Source: Rhodopseudomonas sp. (lineage in GTDB: Bacteria; Pseudomonadota; Alphaproteobacteria; Rhizobiales; Xanthobacteraceae). From it: DNA of 59,561 nt. A model generated the notes under the pieces. The model was given only the letters and a program-made list of their open reading frames with translations. It made no database searches and was not told the origin of the DNA. Below, piece by piece: positions 4,862-25,746 of the stretch. Both the position numbers and the translations under genes were made by a program. Location of the stretch: NCBI GenBank assembly GCA_016124795.1, contig WGNB01000060.1, forward strand, positions 1 through 59,561. The letters are read 5' to 3'. How positions within the stretch are numbered: position 1 is the first letter of the stretch; every line of letters starts with the position of its first letter.

Positions 4862-5848
4862 TTGCGCAATCTCATTACCGATATTCCGGGCCTGCGGGTC
4901 GGCCACGCCGGCGCCGCCAAACTCGGGTCCGGTTCGACCGTCGTGCTGTTCGACCGGCCGGTGGCCGCCAGCATCGACGTCCGCGGCGGCGGTCCCGGGA
5001 CGCGCGAGACCGCGCTGCTCGACCCGGCCCAGACGGTGGAAGGCATCGACGCCATCGTGCTGTCGGGCGGTTCGGCCTATGGCCTCGACGCCGCCTCCGG
5101 CACGCAGGCTTATCTGCGCGAGCACGGTCGGGGCTTCAAGGTACGCGAGGCGCTGGTGCCGATCGTACCCGGCGCCATCCTGTTCGATTTGTTGTCGGGC
5201 GGCGACAAGAAGTGGGCCCGCTATCCGCCCTATCGCGAGTTCGGCTATGACGCCGCCAAGGCCGCGGCCGAGGACTTCGCGCTCGGCTCGGTCGGCGCCG
5301 GCCTTGGCGCCACCACGGTCAACCTCAAAGGCGGCATCGGCTCGGCATCCGCCGTGACCAGCGACGGCATCACCGTTGGCGCGTTGGTCGCGGTCAATGC
5401 CGCCGGCAGCGTCACCGTCGGCGACACCCCGCATTTCTGGGCAGCGCCTTTCGAACAGAACAGGGAGTTCGGCGGTTGCGGCCTGCCGCCATCGTTCAGC
5501 GCCGAGGATCTGGCGCTGCGCAGCAAAGGCGGCCCCCGTCAGGCGACCACATTGGCGATCGTCGCCACCGATGCCAAGCTCACCAAGGCGCAATGCAAAC
5601 GGCTGGCGGTGATGGCCCATACCGGCATGGCGCGCGCGATCTATCCAGTGCATACGCCGCTCGACGGCGATGTCATCTTTGCCGCAGCGATGGGCAATAC
5701 CGAATTGCCCGATCCGATCTATTCGCTCAGCGAACTCGGCATGACCGCCGCCAATGTCCTGGCCCGCGCGATCGCGCGCGGCGTCTATGAAGCCAGCGCC
5801 CTGCCGTTTCCCGACGCGCTGCGCAGCTGGAAGGACTGGCACAGCTAG
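4862..5848 (+). CDS. P1 family peptidase (DmpA/BapA-like N-terminal nucleophile hydrolase)
   Basis: A member of the DmpA/L-aminopeptidase D-esterase family, whose precursors self-cleave before a Ser nucleophile. The N-terminus NLITDIPGLRVGHA and the later blocks LSGGSAYGLDAASG and GGIGSASAV are family hallmarks. The Gly-Ser in the last block is the likely cleavage and nucleophile site, though I could not align it. I prefer the TTG start at 4862 because AGGAG sits eight bases ahead and the protein then begins MRNLITDIPG as in relatives. The ATG at 4841 has its AGGA directly abutting. It is a stand-alone gene; the substrate is unknown, probably small peptides or amides. Confidence 0.87.
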   Translation: MRNLITDIPGLRVGHAGAAKLGSGSTVVLFDRPVAASIDVRGGGPGTRETALLDPAQTVEGIDAIVLSGGSAYGLDAASGTQAYLREHGRGFKVREALVPIVPGAILFDLLSGGDKKWARYPPYREFGYDAAKAAAEDFALGSVGAGLGATTVNLKGGIGSASAVTSDGITVGALVAVNAAGSVTVGDTPHFWAAPFEQNREFGGCGLPPSFSAEDLALRSKGGPRQATTLAIVATDAKLTKAQCKRLAVMAHTGMARAIYPVHTPLDGDVIFAAAMGNTELPDPIYSLSELGMTAANVLARAIARGVYEASALPFPDALRSWKDWHS

Positions 5849-18605: not shown

Positions 18606-19223
18606 ATGACCAAGCGTTTGGAATCCAAGTACAAAATTGACCGCCGGATGGGCCAGAACATCTGGGGTCGACCGAAGAGCCCGGTAAACCGCCGTGAATA
18701 CGGCCCCGGCCAGCACGGCCAGCGCCGCAAGAGCAAGCTGTCGGACTACGGCGTGCAGCTCAAGGCCAAGCAGAAGCTACGCGGCTACTACGGCAACATC
18801 TCCGAGAAGCAGTTCCACAGCATCTATTTCGAAGCCATCCGCATGAAGGGCGACTCGGGCGCCAACATGATCGGCCTGCTGGAGCGCCGCCTCGACGCGG
18901 TGATCTACCGCGCCAAGTTCGTGCCGACGGTGTTCGCCGCCCGCCAGTTCATCAACCACGGCCACATCAAGGTGAACGGCCGCCGTGTCAACATCCCGAG
19001 CTTCCGGGTGAAGGTCGGCGACGTCATCGAGATCAAGGAATCGTCGAAGCAGATGAACCTGGTGCTCGAAGCCCAGGCTTTGTCCGAGCGCGACGTGCCC
19101 GATTACATCGCCGTCGATACCGGCAAGATGACCGCCCAGATGGCGCGCGTCCCGGTGTTCTCGGATGTGCCCTATCCGGTCCAGATGGAACCGCACCTGG
19201 TGGTGGAATACTACTCGCGCTAA
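18606..19223 (+). CDS. rpsD: 30S ribosomal protein S4
   Basis: A 205-residue primary 16S rRNA-binding protein of the small subunit, essential for 30S assembly. Conserved blocks include [30 protein letters not shown] and the S4 RNA-binding domain with [20 protein letters not shown]. It is monocistronic rather than part of the alpha operon, as is usual in alphaproteobacteria. GAGGACGCG precedes the ATG, and a hairpin terminator follows. Confidence 0.97.
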
Positions 19224-19261
19224 GCGACGGCGTTTTCCCGACTTCATCTTCCGAGAATTGC

Positions 19262-19288
19262 AATCCCCTGCCCAAAAGGCGGGGGATT
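19262..19288 (+). terminator. Terminator after rpsD
   Basis: AATCCCCTGCC pairs with GGCGGGGGATT (one G-T wobble) around a CAAAA loop, 38 bases after the rpsD stop. The T run is short (TTT), so efficiency is uncertain. Confidence 0.6.
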
Positions 19289-19326
19289 TGCTATTCAGGG
19301 ATCAGAATATGTACGGGAGAAGCGCC

Positions 19327-20265
19327 ATGACCAACAACAACCAGCTTTCGCGCCGTGCGTTGCTGGCGACGACCGCCGCCGGGCTTGCCGCCGCGAGCCT
19401 GCCGCCCCTGCCCGCTTTCGCCGCCGCGCCGCCGACCACGTTCAAGCACGGCGCCTTCGAGGTCACCGTGGTCAGCGATGGCCATCTGGTGCTGCCCACC
19501 ACCATGCTGGCGCCCGACGCCAAGCCGGACGAACGGGCGGCGCTGCTGAAGACCGCCGGGCAAAGCGGCGATACCTATAACGCGCCGACCAATGTCACCC
19601 TGCTCCGCTCGGCCAGCGATCTGATCCTGATCGATATGGGCTCGGGCGATCGCTTCATGCCGACCGCCGGCAAGCTGTGGGACAACCTCAAAAGCGCCGG
19701 CATCGACAAGACCAAAATCACCAAGGTGATCTTCACCCACGGCCACCCCGATCATTTGTGGGGCGCGGTCGACGAACTCGACGACCTTGTGCTGCCGAAA
19801 GCCAGCTTCCACGTCGCCGCCGCCGAATGGGACTTCTGGAACGGCGACAACGCCACGCGCGGATTGCCGGCCGAGCGCGCCGGCTTCGTCACCGGCGCGA
19901 AACGCAATTACGCCGCGATCAAGGAGCGGGTCACCATGTTCAAGGCCGGCGACGAGATCGTGCCGGGCATTCAGGTGATCTCGACGCCCGGCCATACCCA
20001 GGGCCATGTCTCGCTGGCGGTCGCCGGCGGCGACGGCCTGATCGTCGGCGGCGACGTGCTCACCCACCCGATCATCTCGTTCCGGCATCCGGAATGGAAA
20101 CCGACCGCCGATCACGTCCCAGATCAAGCTGTCGCCACCCGCAAGATGCTGCTCGACCGGCTGGCCAAGGATCGCTCGAAGCTGATCGGCTACCATTTGC
20201 CTTATCCCGGCCTTGGCCGGGTCGAACGCAAGGATGGCGCGTACCGTTACGTTGCGGAAGGCTGA
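19327..20265 (+). CDS. Tat-exported metallo-beta-lactamase-fold hydrolase
   Basis: A 312-residue MBL-fold enzyme. The N-terminus carries a twin-arginine signal (LSRRALLAT at residues 7-15, then an Ala-rich core ending near AFAAAP), so it is exported folded. Metal ligands are clear: His138, His140, Asp142 and His143 in THGHPDHLWG, then GHTQGHVSL and GGDVLTH, and a late GYHLPYPGLGRV. These features fit the quorum-quenching-lactonase and alkylsulfatase-like branch of the fold, but the substrate is unknown. GGGAGA precedes the ATG at 19327; the frame upstream is not part of it. Confidence 0.88.
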   Translation: MTNNNQLSRRALLATTAAGLAAASLPPLPAFAAAPPTTFKHGAFEVTVVSDGHLVLPTTMLAPDAKPDERAALLKTAGQSGDTYNAPTNVTLLRSASDLILIDMGSGDRFMPTAGKLWDNLKSAGIDKTKITKVIFTHGHPDHLWGAVDELDDLVLPKASFHVAAAEWDFWNGDNATRGLPAERAGFVTGAKRNYAAIKERVTMFKAGDEIVPGIQVISTPGHTQGHVSLAVAGGDGLIVGGDVLTHPIISFRHPEWKPTADHVPDQAVATRKMLLDRLAKDRSKLIGYHLPYPGLGRVERKDGAYRYVAEG

Positions 20266-20283: not shown

Positions 20284-21315
20284 CTAGGCGTCGATGACAA
20301 GCCGCGCCGAACGGGCGCGGCTGACGCAGACCATCATGCAATCGTTACGCGCCTTGTCCTGCGCCGACAGAACGCTGTCGCGATGATCGGGTTCGCCGGC
20401 AATCACCCGCGTCTCGCAGGTGCCGCAATAACCCTCCTCGCAGGAAAACGACACGTCGGCCTGCGCGGCACGCAAGACGCTGCCGAGCGAGCGGTCGGCC
20501 GGCACCGGCAACGTGCGCCCGCTCCGGGCCAACACCACCTCGAATGCGCGATTGACCGGCGGCGCGGCCACCGGATCGGCGACCGGCGCGGTGAACCGTT
20601 CGACATGCAGCCGATCGGCCACGCCATAACGGCGCGCGGCATCCTCGATCGCGATCAGCATGGCCGCCGGCCCGCAGGCATAGATCAGCGTGTCCGGCAT
20701 CAGCGCACGCAACAGCGCATCGATGTCCGGATGTCCGGCCTCATCCCGCGCCACGGCTTCGAATTTGCCGCCCGAGCGGCGCGCGACTTCATTGCCAAAG
20801 GCCATGCTGGCACGCGTCCGCCCGCCATGCACGAAGCGCCAGGATCGACCCGACCGCGCGGCGGCCTGGACCATCGGCAATAACGGCGTGATGCCGATGC
20901 CACCGGCGATGAACAGATAATCGTCGGCGTCGAAGAATGGAAAGCGGTGACGCGGCTTGCCGATATTCAACCGCAGGCCGGGCCGGGCCACCGCATGGAG
21001 TTCGGCCGAACCGCCACGGCCGGCGGCTTCGCGCAACACCGCGATCCGGTAAGAGTCAAACTTATCGGGATCGCCACACAACGAATATTGCCGCACCTTG
21101 CCCGTCGGCAGCGCGACATCGACATGCGCACCCGGAAGCCACGGCGGCAATTTCGCACCGTCTTCTCGCACCAGTTCAAGCGCGATGACAGCCTCGGCCA
21201 CCTGCGTCACCCGCGCGACCCACACCGGCAAAGATGCGCCGCCCGTCGCGCGTTGACGGCCCGCCGCGGCATCGCGCGGCAGCAATCCGGGCTGCGATAA
21301 CGGCTGCGAAGTCAT
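20284..21315 (-). CDS. Phthalate-dioxygenase-reductase-like flavin/2Fe-2S oxidoreductase
   Basis: A three-domain reductase. First is a flavin-binding barrel with RQYSLCGDP (flavin contact). Next is an NAD(P)-binding domain (FIAGGIGITPLLPM and IYACGPAAML). Last is a C-terminal plant-type 2Fe-2S domain (SCEEGYCGTCETRV plus a late Cys in NDCMMVCV). It would pass electrons from NAD(P)H to a partner oxygenase or other acceptor; none of the usual Rieske oxygenases is adjacent. The ATG at 21315 fits AGGAG spacing better than the one at 21321. It lies downstream of the urtA-like gene with a hairpin between, and near the divergent MOSC-rubredoxin frame, which could be its electron acceptor (inference). 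Confidence 0.87.
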   Translation of the reverse strand: MTSQPLSQPGLLPRDAAAGRQRATGGASLPVWVARVTQVAEAVIALELVREDGAKLPPWLPGAHVDVALPTGKVRQYSLCGDPDKFDSYRIAVLREAAGRGGSAELHAVARPGLRLNIGKPRHRFPFFDADDYLFIAGGIGITPLLPMVQAAARSGRSWRFVHGGRTRASMAFGNEVARRSGGKFEAVARDEAGHPDIDALLRALMPDTLIYACGPAAMLIAIEDAARRYGVADRLHVERFTAPVADPVAAPPVNRAFEVVLARSGRTLPVPADRSLGSVLRAAQADVSFSCEEGYCGTCETRVIAGEPDHRDSVLSAQDKARNDCMMVCVSRARSARLVIDA

Positions 21316-21327
21316 CGTCATGCTCCT

Positions 21328-21405: not shown

Positions 21406-22692
21406 TTAGTTGGTGGCAAAGCGCGGCGTCGTGCAGCCGCCGCAAACCCACGGCCAGGACCAGTTGGCGACCTTGCCTTTATTGGCCTCGACGTAGGGAC
21501 TCCAGGCTTTCGGCGGCAGCGCCTTGCTCTTGTAGACGATGCTGAACTGACCGTTGCCCTGGATTTCGCCGATCATCACCGGCTTGGCCATGTGGTGGTT
21601 CGGGCCCATCGTCACTTCGAAGCCGGACGGCGACTTGACCTTCTGGCCGATCATCGCCTGACGCACGGCGTCGACATCGGTGGTGCCGGCCTGCTGAACC
21701 GCCTGCACCCACATGTGGAACAGGATGTAGGCCGATTCCATCGGATCGTTGGTCACGCTCTTCGGGTTCTTGGTATAGGCGTGCCACTTGGCAATGAACG
21801 CCTTGTTCTCGGGCGTATTGACCGACTCGAAGTAGCTCCAGGCGGCGAGATGACCGATCAACGGCTTGGTATCGACGCCGGCGAGTTCTTCTTCGCCGAC
21901 CGAGAAGGCGATCACCGGGATATCGGTCGCCTTGATGCCCTGGTTGCCGAGTTCCTTGTAGAACGGCACATTGGCGTCGCCATTGACGGTCGAGACCACC
22001 GCCGTCTTCTTGCCGGCCGAGCCGAACTTCTTGATCCGCGCCACTTCGGTCTGCCAGTCCGAGAAGCCGAACGGCGTGTAGTTCTCCAGGATGTCTTCAT
22101 CCTTGACGCCGACCTACTTGAGATAAGCGCGGATGATCTTGTTCGAGGTGCGCGGATAAACATAGTCGGTGCCTTCGAGCACGAAGCGTTTGACGTTGCC
22201 GCCATCCTTGCTCATCAGATACTTGACCGCCGGGATCGCCTTGTTATCCGGCACCGACGAGCCATAGAAGATGTTGTAGGACGATTCCTCGCCTTCGTAT
22301 TCGAGCGGGTAGAACAGCAGGCCGTTAAGCTCCTCGAACACCGGCAGCACCGACTTGCGCGACACCGACGTCCAGCAGCCGAATACGGCGGCGACCTTGT
22401 CCTTGGAAATCAGTTCGCGCGCCTTCTCGGCGAACAGCGGCCAGTTCGACGCCGGATCGACCACCACCGGCTCGATCTTCTTGCCGAGCAGACCACCCTT
22501 GGCGTTCTGATCGGCGACCTGCATCAGCATCAGATCCTTGAGGATCGTTTCGCTGATCGCCATGGTGCCGGACAGCGAATGCAGGATACCGATCTTGATG
22601 GTGTCGGCGGCCAGCGCCGGCGTCGCGACCGCGCCCCATAAGAAGGCCGAGGCCACCGTCGCGTGAAGCCAGGAATGTCGCTTTGCGGTCAT
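21406..22692 (-). pseudogene. urtA: UrtA-like urea/amide ABC transporter substrate-binding protein, interrupted by an in-frame amber codon
   Basis: The frame encodes a full-length UrtA-type binding protein. It has a signal peptide ([17 protein letters not shown] to ATPALA), the mature start [19 protein letters not shown], then [33 protein letters not shown] and GFEVTMGPNHHMAKPVMIG. Codon 193 is TAG (22114-22116), in the same frame, between RAYLK and VGVKDEDILENYTPFG. Both sides remain perfectly conserved in style, so a single recent base change or a base-calling error is likely. If real, the product is truncated within the first lobe. No urtBCDE genes are near, so it was an orphan or works with another permease. 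AAGGAG precedes its ATG. Confidence 0.85.
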
Positions 22693-22946: not shown

Positions 22947-23020
22947 AGCGGTCCAGTTGACTTTGGATTGAGCGGTCCAGTTCGCCACCGGCTTGCGGTC
23001 CAGTTGCGAGCACCTACAAT
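22947..23020. promoter_or_regulatory. MocR-type operator: three direct repeats of GCGGTCCAGTT, with promoter of the divergent regulator
   Basis: The 11-base motif GCGGTCCAGTT occurs three times in the same orientation, within 12-base blocks at 22947-22958, 22971-22982 and 22994-23005. Spacing is 24 and 23 bases, about two helical turns. The last copy overlaps a TTGCGG (22993-22998) that is 16 bases from TACAAT (23015-23020), a plausible promoter for the MocR gene at 23092. Phased direct repeats are the usual operator form of MocR/GabR/PdxR regulators, so this site probably controls both the regulator and urtA. The rest of 22693-23091 shows nothing else. Confidence 0.75.
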
Positions 23021-23091: not shown

Positions 23092-25746
23092 ATGCAGATT
23101 CCCGTGCTGCTGGATCGCTCCCGGCGCGAACCTCTGATTAATCAACTCTGCGACCAGTTGCGCGAGGCGATCCGCCAGACGCGGCTGGCGGCCGGCACCC
23201 GTTTGCCGTCGTCGCGCCAGTTGTCGGAACAGCTCGCGGTGTCGCGTAACACCGTGGTGCGCGCCTACGACAGCCTGATCGTCGAGGGCTATGTCGAATC
23301 GCGTCCGGGCTCCGGCATTTTTGTTTCAGACCGGCCACCGGCGATCAAACCGAGCTTCGATACCGACACGAGCGACATCGACTTCACTACGTCGGCATCG
23401 GCGATGCCGATCCCGACCATCGCCTTGCGCGCGCCGACCGTCGGCCATCTGACGCCGGGACGCCTGTCATTCGACTTCTTTCCGGGCCGGCCGAGCGCGG
23501 CGCAATTCCCGATCAAGACTTGGCGGCGCATCCTGCATCGCAATCTGGCGCAAGGTGGCGGCACCGGCCTTACCCATTATGGCGACCCCGCCGGCCTGCC
23601 GCTGTTGCGTTCGGCCATCGCCAGTCATCTGGCGACATCGCGCGGCATCGCCGCCGACCCCAGCCGCATCGTCATCGTCTCCGGCATTCAGGAAGGCATC
23701 GGTATCGCGGCGCGGCTGTTCCTGAACGCCGACACGCTGACCGCCATCGAGGACCCGTGTCATCAGGGCGTCGCCTATGCTTTCGAGGCGACCGGCACGC
23801 GCATGGCCCATATCGCGGTCGATAACGAAGGGCTGATCCCCGACGACCTGCCGCGCCGGCAAACCGCGCTGCTCTACGTCACCCCATCGCATCAATTTCC
23901 AACCGGCCATACGCTATCGCTGACGCGCCGGCGCGAGATCGTGCGCTGGGCGCGTCGCAACGGCTGCTACATTCTCGAGGACGACCGCGACAGCGACTTC
24001 CGCTACGAGGGCTCGCCGCTGCCGGCGATCGCGGCGGCGGCGCCCGATTGCACGATCTACCTCGGCACCTTTTCAAGGTCGCTCGGCGCCGGATTGCGGC
24101 TTGGCTACATGGTGGTGCCGCGCCAGCTCGCCGAACTGACCGCCCATGCCAAGGCGCTGCTTAACAGCGGCAATCCCTGGCTCGAGCAATCGGCGCTGGC
24201 CGAGATGATGCGCAACAACAGTTACGACGCGCACCTGCTGCGCATCCGCGCCACTTATCGGCAGAACCGCGATCGGCTGCTGGTCGCACTGCGGCGCAAT
24301 TTCGGCGACGTCATCGTCACCGGCGAACATGGCGGCCTGCATCTGGTCTGGCATCTGCCGCCCGGCGTACCGAATGCCGCCGTGGTCGAGGCTATCGCGC
24401 GACGCGCCCGTATCGGCGTCTATTCGCTCGCCTCCGGCGGCGCTTACGCCGCCAAGCCGAGCAATCTGGTGCAGCGCGGGCTGATGCTCGGCTATGCCGC
24501 GCTCAACGCCAAGCAGATCGAACAAGGCATCGCCCGCCTGTCGGACGCGATCGACGATTCAATCGACGACCCTGGCGCCGATGTCAGCGCGCTGTTCGCG
24601 CGGCTGTCGCCTGCCATTACGGCCGGCACAAGCGGCGCGTCGCCGGTCCATCTGGACTCCAAACTTCGTCGGCAACCGGCCCTCGCGGCGATCCGCCGGC
24701 CGCGTGCAAGCTCGGCGTCCAACCCCAGTCGCGGTCACGCACGAGCAGCAGGACGTCCCATGGCAACGGTGAGCAGACTCTATCGGTATCCGATCAAGGG
24801 ACTGAGCGCGCAGCCGCTATCGTGCGTCGCGCTCGAACCCGACAAGCCTTTTCCGCACGACCGCGAATACGCGCTCGCCCGGCCCGGCGCGCCGATCGAC
24901 AGCCGCGATCCGAAATGGGCCAAGAAAGGCCTGTTCGTCATGCTGATGCTCGACGAAGGCCTCGCCCGCGTCACCACCAAGCTCGACGTCGACAGCCACC
25001 ACATGACGGTGACGCAAGGCAACCGGCAGATCGCGCAAGCCAATCTGACCGACGAAGCCGAGCGCGCCGAATTCGAACATGCCGTGTGGAAGCTGGTGCC
25101 GACGCTGCCGGCGCCGCCGACGCTGGTGCATTCGTCCGGCGGCCATTTCATGGACAAGCCGGACAACGTCATCTCGCTGATCAATCTGGCGACGGTGCGC
25201 AGCCTCGAACAGCAATGGGGCGTGGCGATCGATCCGCTCCGCTTTCGCGCCAATATCTATATCGACGGCGCCAAGCCCTGGGAGGAATTCGACTGGGTCG
25301 GCGGCGATATCAGCATCGGCGGCGTCGACTTCGCCGTCGACCGCAAGAACGGCCGTTGCGGCGCGACCAATGTCAATCCACAGACCGGCCGGCGCGACCT
25401 CGATATTCCGGCCTCGCTGCGCGCGATGTACGGCCACAAGAATCTCGGCGTCTACCTGATCGCCAAGAATGCCGGGCAGATCGCGGTCGACGATGCGCTG
25501 ACCACGCCGAACGTGAAATCGGCGGTCGTCGCGCCCGTGTTGCCGGAGATCGCGATGCCGGTACCAGCGCGCAGTTTCATCTGTCGCGGCTGTTATTTCA
25601 TCTACGAGGAAGCCAAGGGCCTGCCGCAACAGGCGATCGCGCCGGGCACCGCTATCGCCAACATTCCCGACGCCTGGCGCTGCCCGGACTGCGGCACCGA
25701 CAAGACGACGTTCCGGCCTTATGCCGAAAGCGAGACGACGGTCTGA
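23092..25746 (+). CDS. MocR-type regulator fused to MOSC domain and rubredoxin (884 aa)
   Basis: One open frame with four parts. Residues 10-78 are a GntR winged helix (PSSRQLSEQLAVSRNTVVRAY, in parts). Residues 115-485 are a fold-type I aminotransferase domain (THYGDPAGLPLLR, YVTPSHQFPTGHTLS, EDDRDSDFRYEG). Residues 490-556 are an Ala/Ser/Arg linker without family features. Residues 557-835 are MOSC_N plus MOSC (VSRLYRYPIKGLS; the likely Mo-ligand Cys756 in GRCGATNVNPQTGRRD; NLGVYLIAKNAG). Residues 829-876 are a rubredoxin with Cys831, Cys834, Cys864 and Cys867 (CRGC, WRCPDCG). The PLP-binding Lys expected in TFSKxLGxGLRLGY is Arg329 (codon AGG). An ATG at codon 557 with its own AGGA suggests that two genes were joined by loss of the MocR stop. 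DNA binding is intact by sequence; PLP binding is doubtful. Confidence 0.85.
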   Translation: MQIPVLLDRSRREPLINQLCDQLREAIRQTRLAAGTRLPSSRQLSEQLAVSRNTVVRAYDSLIVEGYVESRPGSGIFVSDRPPAIKPSFDTDTSDIDFTTSASAMPIPTIALRAPTVGHLTPGRLSFDFFPGRPSAAQFPIKTWRRILHRNLAQGGGTGLTHYGDPAGLPLLRSAIASHLATSRGIAADPSRIVIVSGIQEGIGIAARLFLNADTLTAIEDPCHQGVAYAFEATGTRMAHIAVDNEGLIPDDLPRRQTALLYVTPSHQFPTGHTLSLTRRREIVRWARRNGCYILEDDRDSDFRYEGSPLPAIAAAAPDCTIYLGTFSRSLGAGLRLGYMVVPRQLAELTAHAKALLNSGNPWLEQSALAEMMRNNSYDAHLLRIRATYRQNRDRLLVALRRNFGDVIVTGEHGGLHLVWHLPPGVPNAAVVEAIARRARIGVYSLASGGAYAAKPSNLVQRGLMLGYAALNAKQIEQGIARLSDAIDDSIDDPGADVSALFARLSPAITAGTSGASPVHLDSKLRRQPALAAIRRPRASSASNPSRGHARAAGRPMATVSRLYRYPIKGLSAQPLSCVALEPDKPFPHDREYALARPGAPIDSRDPKWAKKGLFVMLMLDEGLARVTTKLDVDSHHMTVTQGNRQIAQANLTDEAERAEFEHAVWKLVPTLPAPPTLVHSSGGHFMDKPDNVISLINLATVRSLEQQWGVAIDPLRFRANIYIDGAKPWEEFDWVGGDISIGGVDFAVDRKNGRCGATNVNPQTGRRDLDIPASLRAMYGHKNLGVYLIAKNAGQIAVDDALTTPNVKSAVVAPVLPEIAMPVPARSFICRGCYFIYEEAKGLPQQAIAPGTAIANIPDAWRCPDCGTDKTTFRPYAESETTV
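24751..24762 (+). promoter_or_regulatory. Internal ribosome site and ATG for a separate MOSC-rubredoxin protein
   Basis: AGGA lies six bases before the ATG at 24760, in frame with the 884-codon gene. Initiation here would give a 328-residue MOSC_N-MOSC-rubredoxin enzyme beginning MATVSRLYRYPIKG, the natural N-terminus for this family. The cell may therefore make this protein independently of the fusion. Sequence alone cannot show which is used. Confidence 0.6.

Follow-up and report, generated by a model that had tools for sequence, protein, structure and literature searches.

An in-frame fusion of a MocR-type regulator to a MOSC-rubredoxin protein, divergently paired with a UrtA-like gene, in Rhodopseudomonas and relatives

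Trigger enzymes of the PutA type carry a DNA-binding domain and a redox enzyme domain in one polypeptide. Regulator-molybdoenzyme fusions are also not without precedent, as a survey of molybdoprotein fusions includes, in its available part, a NarL/FixJ response regulator joined to the DMSO-reductase family (PMC6147048). In MocR regulators the lysine which forms the Schiff base with pyridoxal phosphate (PLP), Lys312 of GabR, is described as conserved across all MocR clusters (available text of PMC6677901), and direct boxes with an inverted one are given as the commonest MocR motif structure, found in 32% of regulons (available text of PMC5320631). Enzymes of the mARC type reduce N-oxygenated compounds, and N-hydroxyurea is given as a preferred substrate of mARC1; the MOSC partners named in the available sections of the same paper are ferredoxin, flavin, MoaB and XdhC, and the word rubredoxin does not occur in its main text (PMC10637980). 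Here we describe a gene from Rhodopseudomonas sp. (assembly GCA_016124795.1, contig WGNB01000060.1, positions 1 to 59,561, hereafter the window) in which a MocR regulator, a MOSC enzyme and a rubredoxin are encoded as one 884-residue protein at 23092..25746 on the forward strand. Among the titles and abstract openings listed from the open-licence literature, we found no description of a MocR joined to a MOSC or rubredoxin domain.

The gene belongs to a conserved ancient fusion with a dedicated partner gene, and is a variant of the MocR regulator and MOSC reductase kinds. On balance we lean, by a small margin, towards reading it as an autogenous regulator which is tethered to a mARC-like N-reductase by an ancient fusion, has as its partner a protein that binds a urea analogue and is accompanied by extra free enzyme from a second start.

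The 884 codons form a single uninterrupted frame. A first-pass annotation of this DNA, made from its letters alone, had listed GntR, aminotransferase-like, MOSC_N/MOSC and rubredoxin parts in that order, and Pfam bore this out with one part just under its threshold. The matches were a GntR winged helix-turn-helix (residues 17-78, 23140..23325; PF00392, 64.6 bits, cut-off 27), an aminotransferase-like domain with altered PLP pocket residues (residues 150-434, 23539..24393; PF00155 Aminotran_1_2, 82.7 bits, cut-off 19.7), MOSC (residues 687-803; PF03473, 48.4 bits, cut-off 22.7) and rubredoxin (residues 829-874, 25576..25713; PF00301, 57.7 bits, cut-off 23). The MOSC_N match (residues 557-654) reached 23.4 bits, just below the cut-off of 25, a point against the preferred reading. 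GabR (4n0b) aligns over residues 1-487, with the winged helix-turn-helix followed by the aminotransferase-like domain as in MocR regulators. The MOSC_N-like part and MOSC together occupy 24760..25500 and have a predicted mARC-type fold: in a model of the MOSC-rubredoxin part (predicted local distance difference test score, pLDDT, 81.6; 23 sequences) the nearest PDB fold was human mARC1 6fw2 (E 3e-9, TM score 0.51 by query length, root-mean-square deviation 11.9, 13% identity), followed by rubredoxins. Two sequence searches of the PDB (best 60 matches each) gave matches which all ran through the rubredoxin part, with no mARC among the matches listed. The cysteine-containing MOSC motif GRCGATNVNPQTGRRD was present as first described, and its Cys756 (25357..25359), at the position of the Mo ligand in mARC, was invariant together with the surrounding residues in 18 fused sequences, the cysteine also being kept in 23/23 sequences of a second alignment. 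The four cysteines of the rubredoxin CxxC ... CxxC iron site were likewise invariant, and many rubredoxins superpose on this part at 0.6-0.8 Å. A second MOSC match in the same genome (G000:C42:7908-8666) is a separate open frame of 273 residues, 39% identical to the fused one.

A scan of genome contigs with the MOSC-rubredoxin part as query returned 30 loci. A MocR match lay upstream at 20 of these, in frame and with zero stops between the two parts in every case; L038 and L048 are truncated at a contig start inside MocR. Seven of the 20 come from named-strain records whose titles are not marked as metagenome-assembled genomes: Rhodopseudomonas sp. B29, Bradyrhizobium sp. LTSP885, B. manausense SZCCT0118, Methylobacterium sp. 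J-030, Methylobacterium sp. E-005, Prosthecomicrobium hirschii 16 and Zavarzinia marina Adcm-6A. The remaining ten loci were MOSC-rubredoxin without MocR (L033, L035, L045), partial, cut or broken (L052, L054, L060) or plain MOSC (L055-L058). With the window and L062 added, the distinct fused loci number 22; L061, L063, L090 and L091 were excluded from this count because their coordinates duplicate loci already counted. A stop between codons 485 and 557, which the first-pass annotation had proposed to look for in relatives, was present at none of the 20 loci with MocR upstream. The long frame is genuine, and a recent stop loss does not account for it. The fusion is rare and patchy, occurring in 4 of 249 sampled genomes of the order and 3 of 385 of the class (own genome counted in both), and among 72,556 plasmid records scanned there was a single match, to a plain MOSC protein at 38.8%.

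Three of the scanned loci also deserve separate mention. L031 and L047, both counted among the 20, are diverged copies of the fusion in one metagenome bin (G284), each with its own operator pair. At L053, from a metagenome assembly, an otherwise fused gene is frameshifted inside MOSC at about 5162. At L060 a rubredoxin-only match (5001-5153, 73%) has no MOSC match ahead of it and is a fragment or an assembly join.

Of the 52 rows in a tree of MocR sequences, 33 were unfused, and the 19 fused ones grouped as one clade with support of 100/100, which speaks for one fusion event; no MOSC or UrtA match was found at the 33 unfused MocR loci within the short flanking DNA examined. In the MOSC-rubredoxin tree the standalone genes L033 and L035 were nested in the fused clade, where a six-row set including the window had support of 100/99; their placement directly beside the window was supported at 91/89 and not starred. 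The deepest row of this tree was the partial locus L052; L045 is a third standalone gene. L033 (4800-5963) and L035 (480-1711) also lie where the window gene lies, flanked by rpsD on one side and glutaredoxin/purL on the other, as judged from shared neighbour genes. The window neighbours were identified by Pfam as Ribosomal_S4 and glutaredoxin; the genes at L033 and L035 we take to be rpsD, and likewise purL is named on our assumption. In the L035 genome, whose completeness is not given, neither a MocR of the fused type nor a UrtA match exceeding 66% identity was found. The L033/L035 lineage has probably undergone a natural loss of the regulator half, with the enzyme retained at the position of the fused gene. 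The standalone gene of L035 starts exactly at the ATG matching codon 557 of the fusion, and that of L033 at an ATG five codons earlier.

Upstream of the fused gene lie three operator-like boxes on the forward strand, the first, AGCGGTCCAGTT, at 22947..22958, the second 24 nucleotides (nt) on at 22971..22982 and the third a further 23 nt on at 22994..23005. Within 230 nt before the fused gene we counted 63 TGGNNCCAGTTG-like boxes across 19 loci, compared with 4.7 expected, with at least two in 19/19. A direct pair exactly 24 nt apart was found at 16 of these loci, the next commonest spacings occurring in 2 loci, and 500 sets of random segments gave 0.31 such pairs on average and never more than 3. 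An inverted box was added at many loci. In 13 genomes the strict pair pattern had 5 matches, all 5 at fused loci, and the window's own box form had 2 matches in its genome, both at this locus, with 0 for the control. No strict-pair match lay elsewhere in the 13 genomes, in which strict paired patterns only were searched for a wider regulon. Several points weigh on the other side. The box matrix was built from the same 19 loci, each being scored without its own sites; the 24-nt spacing was picked after inspecting the data; and a backwards control pattern had 14 matches in the same 13 genomes compared with 5, while 9 of the 13 had no strict-pair match. Because the control matched 14 times against 5, the location of the strict-pair matches is informative and their number is not. 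Taken with these points, a predicted operator of direct and inverted MocR-type boxes at a divergent target is well supported.

That target is a UrtA-like binding-protein gene, at 21406..22692 on the reverse strand of the window (its start codon predicted and its family taken from the relative at L049, which scores 513 on TIGR03407, cut-off 492.75). A UrtA-like gene was divergent from the fusion at 19/19 loci having upstream DNA; L031 has just the first 114 UrtA-like residues on its contig, and L038 and L048 begin inside the fused gene. The conserved urea pocket of Prochlorococcus UrtA, as given in the available text of PMC10392092, consists of Trp120, Ser122, Tyr141, Gln144, Glu146, Tyr190, Asn246 and Ser274, and urea binding is greatly lowered or abolished by changing Ser122, Gln144, Tyr190 or Asn246. 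In the proteins beside the fusion Gln144 was replaced by Glu in 19/19 and the other seven pocket residues were kept, compared with Gln in 16, His in 1 and Glu in 0 of 17 other UrtA-type proteins. These 17 were 14 of the 15 best full-length matches away from the fusion (the one at G105:C5 was omitted) plus three of 45-46% identity; partial or weaker matches were excluded. At least 14 of the genomes with the fusion also have a Gln-type UrtA away from it. In the order sample (249 genomes) the 4 genomes with a UrtA-like match at threshold were the same 4 which have the fusion, and in the class sample (385 genomes) there were 5 UrtA-like matches, of which the 3 with the fusion were of the Glu type and the other 2 of the Gln type. 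It should be noted that the UrtA-like gene of the window has an in-frame TAG (22114-22116) which was unseen in 17 other adjacent UrtA-like matches. This gene is either decaying or affected by a sequence error, and the module of the window may be partly broken given this stop, which speaks against its full function here.

The first-pass annotation had placed a linker at about codons 490-556 (24559..24759), followed by an internal ATG at codon 557 (24760..24762) with AGGA ahead of it (24750..24753), and these coordinates are right. Met was found at this junction in 22/22 fused loci amid variable neighbouring linker residues. We counted the Shine-Dalgarno (SD) words AGGA, GGAG, GAGG and AAGG and found one ahead of codon 557 at 14 of 22 loci, compared with 2.6 expected from random codons of the same genes and 0.8 from linker codons; other in-frame ATGs were preceded by such a word in 33 of 234 cases. 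With two near duplicates dropped, the count was 12/20 against 6.9 when synonymous codons were resampled (p 0.0025), and with an earlier, wider SD window p was 0.008 for 21 loci. The invariant ATG and the SD-like words suggest a second start, and there is moderate support in these sequences for a second, shorter MOSC-rubredoxin product beginning at codon 557. There is an appreciable, though clearly smaller, chance that the fused regulator-enzyme is instead a single product, with the internal ATG a relic, Met557 kept for folding and the protein a classical trigger enzyme which acts only while attached to its DNA-binding part. Such a reading gains from the three further MOSC positions at which Met is invariant, so that a structural reason for Met557 is possible, from the 8/20 loci without an SD word ahead of codon 557 and from the SD binding energy, which did not differ significantly from synonymous resampling (p 0.13). 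All three observations count against a second start. Its difficulties are the excess of SD words in both comparisons, the constancy of Met in a variable linker and the existence of standalone MOSC-rubredoxin relatives, and we prefer two products.

The position of the PLP lysine (GabR Lys312) was occupied by Lys in 33/33 unfused MocRs compared and in 11/19 fused ones. The window protein, with Arg at codon 329 (24076..24078), is one of the eight fused MocRs lacking it (5 Arg, 1 Ala, 1 Ser, 1 Gln), and at least 6 changes at this position are needed on the tree. At the Tyr281 position 11/19 fused proteins had Tyr, and of the 33 unfused 27 had Tyr and 6 Trp, while the Tyr205 position (Tyr in 15/19 fused and 26/33 unfused) says little because it is variable in both groups. 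The pocket residues of the window protein are Arg329, Arg299 and His224. Since the boxes and the enzyme residues persisted through repeated losses of the lysine, the signal input may well have moved off PLP, at least in the lysine-less lineages; retention of the lysine in 11 of the 19 fused MocRs weighs against such a move. These losses could also mean that the MocR half is decaying baggage, with the fusion useful solely for reductase production and nothing sensed any more by the aminotransferase-like domain. The L033/L035 sister lineage, with MOSC-rubredoxin and no MocR at the same locus, agrees with this, as does the L035 genome, in which neither a fused-type MocR nor a close UrtA was found. 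We nevertheless consider such decay very unlikely, as the GntR residues are conserved in the aligned fused proteins, the 24-nt box pair persists at 7 of the 8 lysine-less loci, and the ratio of non-synonymous to synonymous change (pN/pS) of the MocR part was 0.20-0.43 across 8 pairs. The name PdxR was considered for this half (NCBIfam PdxR model, 416 bits, cut-off 320) and was not adopted; the conserved neighbour is UrtA-like, adjacency to PLP-synthesis genes not having been searched.

The linker itself is variable in sequence, only A530, L531 and M557 being invariant across 18 aligned full-length proteins, and is predicted to be disordered, with an AlphaFold pLDDT below 50 at 497-554 (in a model from 18 sequences only, with a predicted template modelling score of 0.48). 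Its pN/pS values were 0.63, 0.45, 0.30, 0.30, 0.45, 0.64, 0.29 and 0.10 by pair, and being below 1 in 8/8 they indicate that the linker is translated. We did not use its openness as an argument against a chance open frame, because 28 of 44 readings in the other two forward frames were also open, which makes an open linker weak evidence alone. A recent stop loss, sequencing error or assembly error joining neighbouring genes would be in keeping with a linker unlike a domain and with the AGGA-preceded internal ATG, yet the identical frame in each of the 22 distinct fused loci, seven named-strain records and purifying selection on the linker leave this a negligible chance, and as a general explanation it is ruled out by the relatives. 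The first-pass idea of two genes joined by stop loss therefore fails as a recent event or error, given the 0/20 stops, the single clade and the selection on the linker, and survives in another form, as the trees suggest an ancient fusion of two genes.

Around the fused gene and its divergent partner we looked for a wider conserved operon in 20 regions, representing 19 places (L041 and L077 are the same place, and L075 and L076 are close relatives). None was found across these regions, in which other genes recur in few regions; a binding-protein gene at L031, L045, L047 and L053 is an example. Gene picking found the UrtA-like gene in 19 of the 20 regions, that of L079 being missed there and found by match search. 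In the window a gene for an NAD-binding/2Fe-2S reductase (20284..21321, reverse strand; Pfam Fer2, NAD_binding_1) lies behind the UrtA-like gene and is a possible electron supply. A Fer2 ferredoxin directly behind the UrtA-like gene was present in 4 of 19 places, or 5 of 20 regions (L041/L077, L080, L075, L076). Further out, at 19165-20265 on the forward strand, is a metallo-beta-lactamase fold protein with partial likeness to the lactonase AidB, far below cut-off.

We propose that an ancient fusion produced one protein which would regulate transcription locally and also act as a molybdenum N-reductase with a rubredoxin built in. Its MocR part would bind the conserved boxes between its own gene and the divergent UrtA-like gene and control both. 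The MOSC domain, judging from its family, would hold the molybdenum cofactor through the invariant cysteine and receive electrons from the rubredoxin. A start at the internal ATG would probably give additional free MOSC-rubredoxin, such that few tethered copies regulate and many free copies catalyse. In lineages without the PLP lysine, the simplest possibility is that the input has shifted to the attached enzyme, through its redox state or its substrate state. The first-pass suggestion of a bifunctional sensor has the conservation of operator-like boxes and of enzyme residues in its favour, and the protein may act as a sensor.

What the module handles is hinted at by its partner, which points to a compact system for a urea-like chemical. 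To our knowledge it is still largely unsettled which compounds the MOSC N-reductases of bacteria reduce in the cell. With the urea pocket kept except for Gln144 to Glu, the ligand is probably a urea analogue, and N-hydroxyurea would fit both the UrtA-like pocket and mARC chemistry. Ser122 and Tyr190, both conserved beside the fusion, hold the urea oxygen, and residue 144 faces the nitrogens, where, we infer, a carboxylate would suit an extra N-OH donor; the dual product, the ligand and the chemistry are likewise inferred. The full version of this idea, which we regard as unlikely, is a module for N-oxygenated urea in which the Glu144 UrtA catches N-hydroxyurea or a close analogue, the reductase serves as its own regulator's sensor, PLP sensing has been abandoned and both tethered and free enzyme are made. 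The regulator, the reductase, the operator-like boxes and a binding protein set apart by a single diagnostic change in its pocket form a small conserved unit, whose substrate and signal are directly testable. If the preferred reading of a tethered regulator-reductase is true, it would exemplify a sensor domain that gave up its cofactor lysine several times once a redox enzyme had been attached, and a fused regulator and enzyme whose second start is conserved.

Compared with the described systems, the fused protein is like the MocR/GabR/PdxR regulators in its GntR and fold-type-I aminotransferase-like domains, its two direct boxes and its divergent neighbour gene. It differs from them in the added MOSC and rubredoxin, in the PLP lysine missing from the window protein and 7 of 18 other fused proteins, and in having a UrtA-like gene as partner. 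The neighbour resembles the UrtA binding protein of the urea ATP-binding cassette transporter in the TIGR03407 score of its L049 relative and in 7 of 8 urea-pocket residues, and departs from it in the Glu for Gln144 in 19/19 and in its divergent pairing with the fusion. The enzyme half is close to the YcbX/mARC N-reductases in its MOSC fold and cysteine, its MOSC_N-like front part and a model nearest to mARC1 6fw2, and shares with YcbX an electron-transfer domain at the C-terminus (a YcbX feature according to the available text of PMC10637980); it has, however, a rubredoxin where YcbX has a 2Fe-2S ferredoxin, and a regulator in front. As in trigger enzymes of the PutA type, DNA-binding and redox enzyme domains are joined in one protein, although here these belong to different families and a possible internal start may release the enzyme in free form.

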